From Kiritimatiellia bacterium (GTDB taxonomy: Bacteria > Verrucomicrobiota > Kiritimatiellia > RFP12 > UBA1067): DNA of 64,000 nucleotides. Made by a program: the position numbers and the translations under genes. Positions within the stretch are counted from its first letter, which is position 1. The number at the start of each line of letters is the position of its first letter. The stretch spans positions 62,001 through 126,000 of the forward strand of contig JAQIBS010000167.1 of assembly GCA_027858965.1 (NCBI GenBank), read 5' to 3'. Below are positions 42,107 through 46,349 of this stretch, in pieces. The notes beneath the pieces were generated by a model that was not told where the DNA came from, did no database searches, and worked only from the letters and a program-made list of their open reading frames with translations.

Positions 42107-42545
42107 AATGATGTAAGCGCGAATGCGAACCCTTCGCGGTCAGTAGCGTCCCATAGGACGAAAGGCTGTTAGGTTTTAGGCTGTAGGCTATTAGGTAAAG
42201 AGGAGATGGACCGTCTTAAAAGTTATCAAACGACTTTTCTTAAAATTCACATCCGTGCTATTTGTGTCTTGACCTCAGATTCTAAGTCACGGTCTTCGCG
42301 CCTGATCCCGGCGCGCCCCAGATTTTGCATATAAGAAGCACTTCTCCACAATCACAACACTCTCATCGGTGTCGTCTTTGTTTACTTCCTGAGAACGCTG
42401 AGCACCAGCCGTGTCAGGACGTAGCTTTTAAGCGAAGACTGGCTAAACATACGAAGCGTACTCAAGCACTCGCCTGCCCTGAGCTCCTGATATGAGCTTG
42501 TCGAATGTTGTCGAATGGGCGCATTTCTCCACCTCTTCACCGGTT
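42107..42545. other. 439-bp gene-free region
   Basis: AGGCTGTTAGGTTTTAGGCTG-TAGGCTATTAGG (about 42163-42196) belongs to the TAGGCTG word family. At about 42470-42519, CGCCTGCCCTGAGCTCC and GAGCTTGTCGAATG, with TTGTCGAATG duplicated, form another dispersed-repeat type. No gene is seen. Confidence 0.55.
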
Positions 42546-42944
42546 TTACTTCGACCAATTCTCGATGTTCAGGCCTGGTATCATTTTAAAATGCTTTTCG
42601 TTGTTTGTGACCAGGCAGTAGTTGTAGGAAATTGCCGTTGCTGCAATAACCAGATCGAAGTCATCGACTGTCTTACCCTTTGAGCCAAGTTCTGCTTTCA
42701 GTTCACCGAACACATCCATGACCGCGCGGGAAATTTCTATGACCGGGAATATCTCCGCGATACGACGAACAACGGCAAGATTCTTAGTCGGATTAGCGGA
42801 TTTTTTTGCGCCGTATACCAGTTCCCCATATGAAACAACTGATATTGATTTCGGTGCTTCGGATTTTGCCCGATAATTATCAATAACCTTTGGGATTTTG
42901 TTCAGTCCATAGATGAGTATATCCGTATCAAGCAAATACATCAT
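42546..42944 (-). CDS. vapC: VapC toxin (PIN-domain RNase)
   Basis: A 132-residue PIN protein starting MMYLLDTDILIYGLN (first catalytic Asp in LDTD), with SVVSYGELVYGA (Glu) near 36-47 and TVDDFDLVIAATAISYNYCL near 91-110 (further Asp residues) and VTNNEKHF. It cleaves RNA unless bound by the antitoxin, whose gene overlaps it by 17 bp. Either of two ATG codons (42944, 42941) could be used. Confidence 0.9.
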   Translation of the reverse strand: MMYLLDTDILIYGLNKIPKVIDNYRAKSEAPKSISVVSYGELVYGAKKSANPTKNLAVVRRIAEIFPVIEISRAVMDVFGELKAELGSKGKTVDDFDLVIAATAISYNYCLVTNNEKHFKMIPGLNIENWSK

Positions 42945-43206
42945 TGTCTCCCTGGAAACGCTTGCTGTTACGGCGACTCTTTCTCAAATCATCCGATATT
43001 TCCTTTGCTGAACGGTTGTCTTTCCAGGAGCCCGCCAAGTCCAGAAATGCGTCAGTGCTCTGCTTGTCTAAGGTCTTGGCGCTGGACAAGTATGACTGAA
43101 TAATGGTTATCACTTCCTGGCTGATGGAACGATTCTCACGGGTCGCCAGTGCGCCCAATGCACTGTAAAGCTGGTCATCGATACCCCGAACCTGTAAAAC
43201 TGCCAT
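42928..43206 (-). CDS. vapB: VapB/FitA-type antitoxin
   Basis: A 92-residue protein starting MAVLQVRGIDDQLYSALGAL, with ATRENRSISQEVITIIQSYL as ribbon-helix-helix of the FitA/Arc type. The C-terminal tail (NSKRFQGDNDVFA) binds the PIN toxin. GGGAGGT lies before the ATG. First gene of the vapBC pair; a good promoter with an internal palindrome is visible upstream (43245-43273). Confidence 0.85.
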   Translation of the reverse strand: MAVLQVRGIDDQLYSALGALATRENRSISQEVITIIQSYLSSAKTLDKQSTDAFLDLAGSWKDNRSAKEISDDLRKSRRNSKRFQGDNDVFA

Positions 43207-43890: not shown

Positions 43891-43941
43891 GAGCTTATTT
43901 GTGGACACGCGCTTGAAACACGCATGTCCACAAATAAGCTC
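43891..43941. repeat. Perfect 17-bp inverted repeat
   Basis: GAGCTTATTTGTGGACA (43891-43907) and TGTCCACAAATAAGCTC (43925-43941). The stem extends inward (GCG/CGC) after one mismatch. It lies between the unknown gene (stop at 43965) and the orphan antitoxin start (43834). No flanking direct repeat and no T-run are seen. Confidence 0.9.
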
Positions 43942-43964: not shown

Positions 43965-44267
43965 TCATTTCGAATACGCCCTCTGGTATTCGTTCTTGAG
44001 CTTCGTATACAGATTCTTGAGTGATGCCCATCTGGGACTCTCTTGTGAAGGATACTCATCCTTATCGTCAAGGGCCATGCTTATCACATCGATCAAGCAA
44101 TCCATATCCCATTGGTACAACCCGATGGGGCGTGTTCCCTTATACTCTTCAATACGGGAATCTAAGCCGAAGGCTTCCACCATTTGCCACGAACGGCGCT
44201 GCAGCTCAGCGAGCTCAACGCCGGTGATCAAGATGTGGACTTTGACGTCGCGTGTTCCAGGTTTCAT
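43965..44267 (-). CDS. Uncharacterised 100-residue protein
   Basis: I do not recognise a named family. The protein reads MKPGTRDVKVHILITGVELA, with WQMVEAFGLDSRIEEYKGTR and YQWDMDCLIDVISMALDD following, and a basic, helical end (LYTKLKNEYQRAYSK). No signal peptide or membrane segment is present, so it is probably cytoplasmic. The ATG at 44267 is preferred to the one at 44288, because the conserved-looking part starts there. A strong promoter (44372-44400) with an overlapping palindrome lies upstream. Its position between a decayed toxin pair and the HicBA cassette suggests accessory DNA. Confidence 0.6.
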   Translation of the reverse strand: MKPGTRDVKVHILITGVELAELQRRSWQMVEAFGLDSRIEEYKGTRPIGLYQWDMDCLIDVISMALDDKDEYPSQESPRWASLKNLYTKLKNEYQRAYSK

Positions 44268-44371
44268 ATTTTTATTAGTATAAGGCAAAATTGCCTGCTA
44301 ACCGTATATTGAGGTGAGAAACGGCAGAAATACTTGTTCCACAAATCAACACCAACTTATTTAAAACATTT

Positions 44372-44400
44372 ATAATAATCAGAATTAACACCTAAGTCAA
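44372..44400 (-). promoter_or_regulatory. Promoter TTGACT-17-TATTAT for the uncharacterised gene
   Basis: Minus strand: TTGACT (44400-44395), 17 bp, TATTAT (44377-44372). The -35 is partly covered by an inverted repeat, ACCTAAGT (44390-44397) and ACTTAGGT (44407-44414), which could be an operator. Transcription would start near 44365, about 100 bases before the coding region. Confidence 0.6.
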
Positions 44401-44426
44401 GTTACCACTTAGGTTTTTACCAGCTC

Positions 44427-44483
44427 CTAAAACACCGGCGGGATCGCCTTACACACAAATTGCTGTGCCAGAGTTCTAATCAT
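44427..44483 (-). CDS. Possible 18-codon peptide gene
   Basis: MIRTLAQQFVCKAIPPVF, ending TAG, preceded by AAGGAGAGTGACC at ideal spacing. It lies directly downstream of the HicBA cassette end. The ribosome binding site is the main support; function is unknown, and it may be only the relic of a longer cassette gene. Confidence 0.3.
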   Translation of the reverse strand: MIRTLAQQFVCKAIPPVF

Positions 44484-44533
44484 GGTCACTCTCCTTCTGT
44501 TTGTTTGTGTTGAGTTGGAGTGTAAGGTCAGGC

Positions 44534-44605
44534 GCTTAACGTTTGAGTTCACCTGCATTTAAAAGGCGTAGCCTCTAAAAGTCAGTGTGCAACGACTTGT
44601 TCGTC
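44534..44605 (-). repeat. attC-like recombination site
   Basis: Minus strand, 72 bases: R'' box GACGAAC (44605-44599), a long imperfect hairpin centred on GAGGC-TAC-GCCTT, then the stretch GAACTCAAAC and R' box GTTAAGC (44540-44534), matching GTTRRRY. It begins 6 bases after the hicA stop, as attC sites do. The R'' box is fully complementary to GTTCGTC at 45036-45030, the upstream end of the same module. Confidence 0.7.
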
Positions 44606-44611
44606 AGTCAG

Positions 44612-44791
44612 TCAGTCATTTCTCAATCTTGAAATGATGCGCCTAGCCAAGATTTCGTTGATTTCACGATGCCTAGGAACTGGTTCAGAATTACCAGTGT
44701 TTGGATTATGGTAGATATCATGCCTTCCACCATGCCTTAAAAGAACACATCCCGTTTTGCTAAGGTGTTGCACTAGGTCTGCCCGCTTCAT
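44612..44791 (-). CDS. hicA: HicA toxin (59 codons)
   Basis: A 59-residue HicA mRNA interferase: MKRADLVQHLSKTGCVLLRH, then GGRHDIYHNPNTGNSEPVPR and HREINEILARRIISRL. The dsRBD-like fold and the catalytic His in GGRHDIY are as in known HicA proteins. The start overlaps the hicB stop as ATGA. The TGA at 44614-44612 is immediately followed by the attC-like site. Confidence 0.88.
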   Translation of the reverse strand: MKRADLVQHLSKTGCVLLRHGGRHDIYHNPNTGNSEPVPRHREINEILARRIISRLRND

Positions 44792-44979
44792 GAGTATTCC
44801 AGCTCTCCAACCTTGCGGATTCCGGGTATTTCTTCAGACCCGAACGTGACCAACAAGTCCCGCAAGTGTTCTTTCAGATCTACTAAATCTGTTCCTTGAG
44901 TCCAATGGTCGGGATAATCATTTAGAAATCCGAGATACATTCCATCTGCTTCTTTCCAAAATGTATATTGTGCTTTCAT
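44788..44979 (-). CDS. hicB: HicB-like antitoxin, short form
   Basis: A 63-residue protein: MKAQYTFWKEADGMYLGFLN, DYPDHWTQGTDLVDLKEHLR and DLLVTFGSEEIPGIRKVGEL. It matches the HicB partial-RNase-H-like domain (Y-F-xxxDGxYxGxxxDxPxxxTxGxxxxELxxxL) but lacks the C-terminal DNA-binding domain of longer HicB proteins. It stands before hicA, an order found in some HicBA systems. Whether it can still repress its own promoter is doubtful without the DNA-binding part. Confidence 0.82.
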   Translation of the reverse strand: MKAQYTFWKEADGMYLGFLNDYPDHWTQGTDLVDLKEHLRDLLVTFGSEEIPGIRKVGELEYS

Positions 44980-45141
44980 GCTGATAGTTTCTCACTTCGG
45001 TATTGGTTTTGCAAGTATCATTATTTTTTGACGAACGTTATGATTAATGCGCTAGGTCCACGCTAGGTGCGGAGTGTCGTAGGACGATCCTCCCGGGCCG
45101 TCTTCCCGCAGTCTGGGCGGCGGCGCTGCGCACTGCATTAC

Positions 45142-45195
45142 GGGCGCTGAGGCCAGCGCCCCTCCAGGTTTAAAACTGAGGCCAGCGCCCTCCCC
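45142..45195. repeat. GGGCGCTG hairpin plus CCCTCCAGGTTT repeat
   Basis: GGGCGCTG (45142-45149) and CAGCGCCC (45154-45161) form a perfect hairpin; CCCTCCAGGTTT follows, then a partial second copy (CTGAGGCCAGCGCCC). The CCCTCCAGGTTT word after a hairpin recurs at 57326-57338. It lies at the 3' end of the polyamine genes and may help to terminate transcription. Confidence 0.7.
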
Positions 45196-45203
45196 ATAAA
45201 AAG

Positions 45204-46349
45204 CTACGAAAGCCGGCCTTTGTAGTCAGCAAAGGTGAATTCGCGGATAACATTAATTTCCCCCTCATCCATGAGGGCAATGGAGGGTAGGTTGACACCG
45301 TTGAACATGTTGTTCTTGACCATGGTGTAATGCGCCATATCGGTGAAAATCAGTTTGTCGCCAGGCTCAAGCGGCTGGTCAAAGGAGTAGTCCCCCACCA
45401 CGTCTCCAGCCAGGCAGGTCATACCACCCAAACGATAGGTGTGCGCTTTCTCCCCGGCCTTGCCTGATCCGATAATGTGCGGACGATAGGGCATTTCGAG
45501 CACATCCGGCATGTGACAGGCCGCTGATGAATCAATGATGGCAAGCTGCATCCCGTTCTCAATCACATCCAGCACCGATGTCACCAGAAAACCGCAATTC
45601 AGCGCCACAGCCTCACCTGGTTCCAGATAAACCATAACATCGTATTTCTGCATGATATGTTTGATCAAACCTATCAGTCGTTCCACATCATAATCATCGC
45701 GGGTGATGTGGTGGCCGCCCCCAAAATTGATCCACTTCATCTGATGCATATATTTACCGAATTTTTGTTCCACCACCTCAAGAGTCCGTTCCAGAGTGTC
45801 GGAATTCTGTTCGCACATTGTATGAAAGTGAAGCCCATCAAGTCCCTCCAGATCGGATGCTGTAATGCGACTCGCAACAGTTCCCATACGTGAGTTCTTA
45901 GCACAGGGATCATAGATCTCAACTTTCTGTTCCGAATACTCCGGATTGAGGCGCAACGCACACTCGATGGATTTATCACACGCTTTGACCCGCTCTTTAA
46001 ATTTTCTATATTGCGCTGGGGAATTAAAGACAATGTGATTGCAGTACTGCATGATCTGATCAAACTCATCATCGCGATAGGCCGGGGCATAGATATGCAC
46101 CTCTTTGCCCATCGACTCCGCACCCAGGCGTGCTTCAAAAAGAGAGCTGGCGGTGATACCTGAAAGGTACTCGCCAACCAGAGGAAAAACAGAGTGCATC
46201 GAAAACCCTTTAAGTGCCAGCAGTATCTTACAGCCGGTCTCATTCTGCACCCGCTTAAGGGTAATCAAATTCTGGCGTAGCAGTCGCTGATCAACCACAT
46301 AGGCAGGAGTTTTAATACTTTTAATAAGTTTAATATCTGCTTCAGTCAT
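45204..46349 (-). CDS. nspC: Carboxynorspermidine/carboxyspermidine decarboxylase
   Basis: A 381-residue PLP enzyme of the alanine-racemase fold. K47 in LLALKGFSMHS binds the cofactor; LDGLHFHTMCEQNSD, WINFGGGHHITR and VYLEPGEAVAL (PLP phosphate and substrate contacts) and IDSSAACHMPDVLE follow the NspC pattern. It decarboxylates carboxyspermidine (or carboxynorspermidine) to spermidine (norspermidine) in the cytoplasm. It is the last step of the pathway whose earlier enzymes are encoded upstream on the same strand (speA, speB, dehydrogenase). A GxxExxY gene separates it from the dehydrogenase. Confidence 0.93.
   Translation of the reverse strand: MTEADIKLIKSIKTPAYVVDQRLLRQNLITLKRVQNETGCKILLALKGFSMHSVFPLVGEYLSGITASSLFEARLGAESMGKEVHIYAPAYRDDEFDQIMQYCNHIVFNSPAQYRKFKERVKACDKSIECALRLNPEYSEQKVEIYDPCAKNSRMGTVASRITASDLEGLDGLHFHTMCEQNSDTLERTLEVVEQKFGKYMHQMKWINFGGGHHITRDDYDVERLIGLIKHIMQKYDVMVYLEPGEAVALNCGFLVTSVLDVIENGMQLAIIDSSAACHMPDVLEMPYRPHIIGSGKAGEKAHTYRLGGMTCLAGDVVGDYSFDQPLEPGDKLIFTDMAHYTMVKNNMFNGVNLPSIALMDEGEINVIREFTFADYKGRLS

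Follow-up and report, generated by a model that had tools for sequence, protein, structure and literature searches.

Does the hicBA toxin-antitoxin pair on the minus strand of the window (the whole 64,000-nucleotide stretch of a Kiritimatiellia genome analysed here) form an integron gene cassette and, if so, how did it come to stand by itself in the chromosome? A sequence-only reading of the region had described a 496-bp hicBA unit ending in an attC-like hairpin within 6 nt of hicA. Coordinates and box anatomy confirmed this description, and the sections below ask what the unit is, where its relatives lie and how it may have reached its present position.

A hicBA unit with the anatomy of an integron gene cassette

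Measured between both G|TT crossover points, the unit spans 496 bp (45035-44540) and its 5′ edge is common to the homologous cassettes of a genome of the same genus (G001; see below). Read along the minus strand from 45036 to 44534, the segment consists of the heptamer GTTCGTC (45030-45036), a 50-nt leader, hicB, hicA, 6 nt, and a 72-nt attC site (44534-44605). The R″ box of this site, GACGAAC (44599-44605), begins 6 nt after the hicA stop codon. It is followed by the L″ box CGTTGCAC (44587-44594), with an extra-helical G at 44590, and by the L′ box GTGAACT (44546-44552), which pairs with L″ at 6 of 7 positions. The R′ box GTTAAGC (44534-44540) makes up the 3′ end of the attC. Genes followed by one attC with R boxes, L boxes and an extra-helical base are what characterizes an integron gene cassette, and this is the arrangement observed.

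The heptamer at the 5′ end, which also precedes both complete hicBA cassettes of G001, is the exact 7-nt complement of R″. The sequence-only reading had drawn attention to this match, which indeed holds at 7/7 positions, as the once-circular form of a cassette requires. It follows from the way integron cassettes recombine that the TTAAGC portion of R′ is sequence of the insertion site and not of the cassette; of the 5′ heptamer, TTCGTC is the half of the R′ box that the cassette itself contributes. Rejoining the cassette ends gave bottom-strand R arms that were fully paired, with a folding energy of −11.7 kcal/mol versus −8.2 for the integrated form. When folded as single-stranded DNA, the integrated site had a z-score of −0.63, 51 of 200 shuffles being equally good; hence, folding energy alone is insufficient to reveal the attC.

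The two genes, hicB (44788-44979, 63 aa) and hicA (44612-44791, 59 aa), overlap by 4 nt. HicA belongs to the HicA toxin family (Pfam HicA_toxin PF07927; 36.2 bits, cut-off 27). The HicB-like antitoxin matched the UPF0150 profile below cut-off (14 bits against 27.3, E 0.049), and the same profile was matched by 3 of 6 HicB family members at E ≤ 0.05. An AlphaFold model of HicB (pLDDT 88.8, pTM 0.71) retrieved HicB structures in Foldseek at probabilities of 0.98-0.99 yet with E values of 0.09-0.17, none of the 259 matches reaching E ≤ 0.001. Neither protein was matched in NCBIfam and PADLOC searches; no PDB sequence matched HicA at E ≤ 1, and comparison of HicB with the sequences of solved structures produced no meaningful match. 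Upstream of hicB, a non-coding segment on the minus strand (44991-45015) is kept in both G001 cassettes and partly in the hicBA locus of another genome (G034), beside which no attC was found. Scanning the hicB upstream region for the sigma-70 consensus gave no match. The segment is possibly the operon's own promoter/operator; given the conservation of this part of the leader, the operon may bring its own promoter with it.

Detection of the attC site by a covariance model

Since an Rfam search of the window returned nothing at gathering thresholds, we built our own attC covariance model (R1) from ten attC sites of G001, leaving the window site out. The alignment input comprised 14 G001 sites. 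Their loops were masked with N, as the right arms had come out misaligned when MAFFT was given the complete attC sequences. Four of the 14 were then dropped: in three, the right-hand spacer was shifted or longer, and the fourth belonged to a set of three sites of contig C214 that closely resemble each other. Run over the whole window with filters off, R1 placed the attC at 25.8 bits (E 0.0011), 15 bits above the runner-up (10.7 bits); the best match on the rest of the 139-kb contig that carries the window (C1) scored 12.3 bits. This covariance-model search, a kind of check that had been suggested along with the sequence-only reading, showed the site to be more than a chance occurrence. No match at E ≤ 0.05 was listed for 34 of 41 genomes (own genome included, up to 150 best candidates scored per genome), which indicates a low background.

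Two of the ten training sites belong to the homologous G001 hicBA cassettes, so R1 is not wholly independent of the window site; they share R″ and some short motifs of the core with the window attC, but the loop is not shared. The window site reached about half the score of the best array sites (25.8 versus 53 and 50.6 bits). Given this and the pairing of its L boxes at 6/7, it may be decayed. The incomplete L pairing also made the site invisible to a strict scan (GTTRRRY, L boxes 7/7), which gave three plus-strand and no minus-strand matches in the window and none in contigs L014-L018. With relaxed settings, the scan detected sites in the G001 arrays. R1 itself is narrow (short loops, one genus); in other Verrucomicrobiota it overlooks attC-like sites that can be made out by eye.

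Homologous cassettes in the arrays of a same-genus genome

Comparison of positions 44200-46349 of the window with 41 genomes, own included, identified hicBA homologues in G001 on contigs C198 (80% identity) and C214 (79%), partial copies on C108 and C139 of the same genome, and weaker relatives in G034, G022 and G004. Both complete copies lie inside cassette arrays, R1 listing nine attC sites on 12 kb of C198 and seven on 6.9 kb of C214. Alignable sequence in the three hicBA cassettes starts at CGTTCGTC and extends to the end of hicA and R″; the sequence before CGTTCGTC and most of the attC beyond R″ differ among them. An integron integrase ORF is present on C198 (8634-9650), in the reading direction opposite to that of the array, and a homologous cassette with the same 5′ edge is therefore found in an array next to intI. 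This ORF scored 184.5 bits, below cut-off, and is incomplete, since only positions 3-181 of the 315-position profile were matched.

Complementarity between R″ and the preceding R′ was also examined along six arrays of G000 and G001. All four variable bases were complementary in 21 of 28 counted neighbouring attC pairs, whereas 2000 shuffles gave 1.8 such pairs on average and 7 at most. The other seven pairs lacked a full match, in some cases where intervening sites were unlisted. The test excluded the paired sites on L056 and L063 (two on each) as well as single-site contigs.

The window and G001 hicBA units have the genes, the 5′ end and R″ in common, and the rest of the attC (44534-44605 in the window) is not shared. 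The attC of a G001 hicBA cassette (L029 4157-4223) is, by eye, near-identical to that of an unrelated Gp49/HTH cassette of the window's own genome (L055 5409-5475). Judging from such sequence comparisons, attC cores may be exchanged between cassettes. In the C198 array (L029 6292-8529), a type II DNA methyltransferase gene and a restriction-enzyme-like gene are among the neighbours of the hicBA cassette.

Integron components elsewhere in the genome

The assembly that contains the window amounts to 5.93 Mb in 256 contigs, and its cassette arrays are on short contigs. On C1, no intI match was found at E ≤ 0.001. The sequence-only reading had likewise seen no integrase here, to which it can be added that the genome has intI elsewhere: contig C178 encodes an integron integrase of 472 aa (TIGR02249, 375.3 bits, cut-off 265), in which we recognized by eye what we take to be the tyrosine-recombinase motifs and the IntI-specific patch. 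Another intI gene, on C83 (L016 548-1516), scored 278.8 bits with profile positions 3-80 and 189-315 matched; its in-frame internal gap makes it likely inactive. Contig C81 holds an N-terminal intI remnant.

R1 detected at least 18 attC matches in this genome at E ≤ 0.0051, all on contigs other than C1. Those listed are on C21 (six), C48 (six), C81 (two), C46 (two), C206, C69, C232, C111 and C140, with a weak match of 15 bits on C30. These counts are lower bounds, because the best 150 of 1914 candidates were scored and the window's own site was not among the matches listed. The cassette in the window is a single attC without integrase (a CALIN of this size is also named SALIN), and the genome has present or former integrons at other places. 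Among the C21 cassette genes are a ParE-type toxin gene and a Gp49/HTH pair. The C21 array adjoins the start of a reverse-transcriptase-like ORF (L055 1-444, minus strand; RVT_1 E 0.008, below cut-off), possibly a group II intron; visual inspection raised the same suspicion for the left end of C83.

The insertion site and its surroundings

Once joined, the flanks of the cassette read ATAACG|TTAAGCG, and the cassette-free site would be ATAACGTTAAGCG. No such empty site was found in 96 genomes of the family (own included, drawn from a larger group). The only partial match outside the own genome, 28 nt long and inside an ORF of G101 that reads like a glycosyltransferase, was rejected as a chance occurrence: GAG replaces GTT at the crossover and no attC lies near.

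On one side of the cassette lies a pyridoxal-dependent decarboxylase gene (45204-46349, minus strand; Pfam PF00278), which we take to be carboxynorspermidine decarboxylase-like. G001 and G002 both retain this gene; in each, the match to the window stops at the gene or within it, and hicBA does not follow. The sequence beyond the gene is not conserved in either of these two same-genus genomes. On the left of the cassette, gene order matches that of G001 for about 5 kb. With no empty site found and the flank unconserved in G001 and G002, both the type of target and the direction of the event (insertion here, not deletion there) are what we infer from the locus.

The sequence-only reading had offered two options, a lone cassette inserted at a secondary site or part of an array without integrase. 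The lone cassette is favoured, as the 139 kb of C1 contain no other attC reaching 13 bits and no intI near the cassette, so that neither an integrase-less array nor a complete integron is seen at the locus. With no empty site found in the 96 genomes, insertion at a secondary site is probable rather than directly seen. Cassette insertion at attG sites has reportedly been described by Loot and colleagues in 2024.

Distribution of hicBA cassettes

A survey of a genome collection (84,980 species) with an alignment of six HicB proteins yielded 66 hicBA loci, mostly from Verrucomicrobiota, Kiritimatiellae and Lentisphaerae, with a few from other groups. Exact R′/R″ complementarity was present at 5 of 67 loci (the window, L073, L074, L095 and L107), compared to a mean of 1.4 and a maximum of 6 in 500 runs of a mispaired control; this test is weak by itself, one reason being that related loci have R boxes in common. 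An attC-like site with 7/7 L pairing followed hicA at five of 66 loci (L073, L074, L078, L084 and L091) versus 8 of 1320 shuffles, and 6/7 pairing was seen at 13 of 66 loci versus 110 of 1320. The shuffles used two-base blocks and are not true dinucleotide shuffles; of the 67 loci, one lacked the length needed for this test. By either test, seven of the 66 loci besides the window gave cassette evidence and the others gave none. Inspection of 26 loci by eye identified cassette-like 5′ ends at L079, L089, L109, L110 and L120, all outside the seven. Thus, hicBA is a recurrent yet not constant cassette in Verrucomicrobiota and their relatives.

Origin of the lone cassette

Together, these data make it very probable that the window contains a genuine lone chromosomal integron cassette, made up of hicBA, its upstream region and an attC, and inserted by IntI at a site outside any array. 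Support for the cassette reading comes from an attC model blind to the site, from the homologues in G001 arrays, and from the integrase genes and arrays of the own genome. The case for insertion outside an array appears good but not closed. In the mechanism that we propose, IntI would release the hicBA cassette from an array in circular form, or the cassette would be taken up from outside. IntI would recognize the folded bottom strand of attC and join the circular cassette to a non-attC chromosomal site, AAC-G|TTAAGC. HicA would be an mRNA-targeting toxin neutralized by HicB, and the pair would be expressed from the cassette's own promoter, in which case it would need no integron promoter.

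It is scarcely credible that the pair is an ordinary chromosomal operon whose hairpin and complementary ends arose by chance. Although most hicBA relatives come without cassette evidence (7 of 66 loci have it) and the integrated site does not surpass shuffles in folding energy, the R1 match stands 15 bits clear of the next, and hicBA units sharing the cassette's edge and R″ occur inside G001 arrays. Such findings largely refute this explanation. The draft state of the genome raises the question of whether a cassette from an array contig was wrongly joined to C1. The assembly is in 256 contigs with its arrays on short ones, and similar attC sites complicate assembly, according to passages of PMC9024848. 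We consider this improbable, however, as hicBA was found once in the own genome (best 7 of 61 candidates scored), its attC has no second copy, and the left-hand gene order is as in G001 over about 5 kb.

An old integron array could also have occupied the locus and lost, by deletion or decay, all but the hicBA cassette. Decayed integron parts do exist in this genome (the gapped intI of C83 and the intI remnant of C81), and the left flank reads CATAAC before GTT, exactly as in one true C214 site. Against this, the contig has no second attC, decayed or not, at or above 13 bits and no intI at E ≤ 0.001, and the partner R″ GCTTAAC is absent from the minus strand between 44540 and 41500, where GCTTAA occurs once, at 42433. 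Since neither the partner R″ for TTAAGC nor a second attC was seen, a remnant of this sort is less likely than IntI-mediated insertion of a lone cassette, and we regard it as unlikely overall. Going beyond the insertion itself, one may speculate, quite tentatively, that the hicBA family of Verrucomicrobiota and relatives shifts among three states (array cassette, lone cassette and plain chromosomal operon), and that the window copy left an array through IntI insertion at G|TTAAGC and was kept there, with R″ and the 5′ end retained and the L boxes and loop exchanged relative to its same-genus relatives.

Relation to known cassettes

HicAB has been published as an integron cassette for Treponema denticola (TDE1837-TDE1838) and oral metagenomes (PMC4909258, in part). 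There as here, a hicB-hicA pair is packaged as an integron cassette. The T. denticola pair, as given in the same excerpts, is the fourth cassette of an integron, whereas that of the window, from a Kiritimatiellae relative, is alone; the oral cassette hicB is listed with 405 nt, and the window HicB has 63 aa. These excerpts also mention the idea that toxin-antitoxin cassettes stabilize their array, a role that is impossible in place for the lone window cassette. Toxin-antitoxin cassettes of the Vibrio cholerae superintegron are said to carry their own promoters (portions of PMC11023631); like the window unit, they are toxin-antitoxin operons in cassettes, but they are located within an array.

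A single attC without integrase (CALIN of one attC) can be a true positive, as stated in sections of PMC9024848; the window site is of this kind and is additionally backed by same-genus array cassettes. Parts of PMC12901181 and PMC12444791 cite the insertion of cassettes at attG sites; the window cassette is comparable in that it lies in a chromosome at a position other than attC or attI, although no empty site was found for it. Verrucomicrobiota appear on a list of integron-bearing phyla in an extract of PMC8618304. A literature search for Kiritimatiell- together with integron returned papers naming both, with neither term in title or abstract. HicAB and other toxin-antitoxin cassettes, integrons in Verrucomicrobiota and stray attC sites are thus already known, and the window cassette is a clear, mostly ordinary example in a little-studied group. 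Its unit is a well-bounded natural integron cassette outside an array, in Kiritimatiellae. Since the hicBA family includes array cassettes, a lone cassette and copies with no recognizable attC, it could serve to study how a gene turns into a cassette and how a cassette becomes established in a chromosome.

Several other elements were noticed around the cassette. A FitA/PIN-type toxin-antitoxin pair (VapBC-like), without an attC match, lies near it at 42546-43206 (minus strand), and a long near-perfect inverted repeat (GAGCTTATTTGTGGACA...TGTCCACAAATAAGCTC) is found at 43891-43941 between two small ORFs. Positions 44275-44449 (minus strand) contain a promoter-like repeat, TTGACTTA...TTAATTCTGATTATTATAA, some copies of which add a downstream part resembling AATATACGG...GCAAATTTGCC. 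This repeat recurs in the own genome on C25 (two copies), C30, C81 and C85 (five copies). On C81 it lies beside the intI remnant and a DUF2188 gene that has an attC after it.
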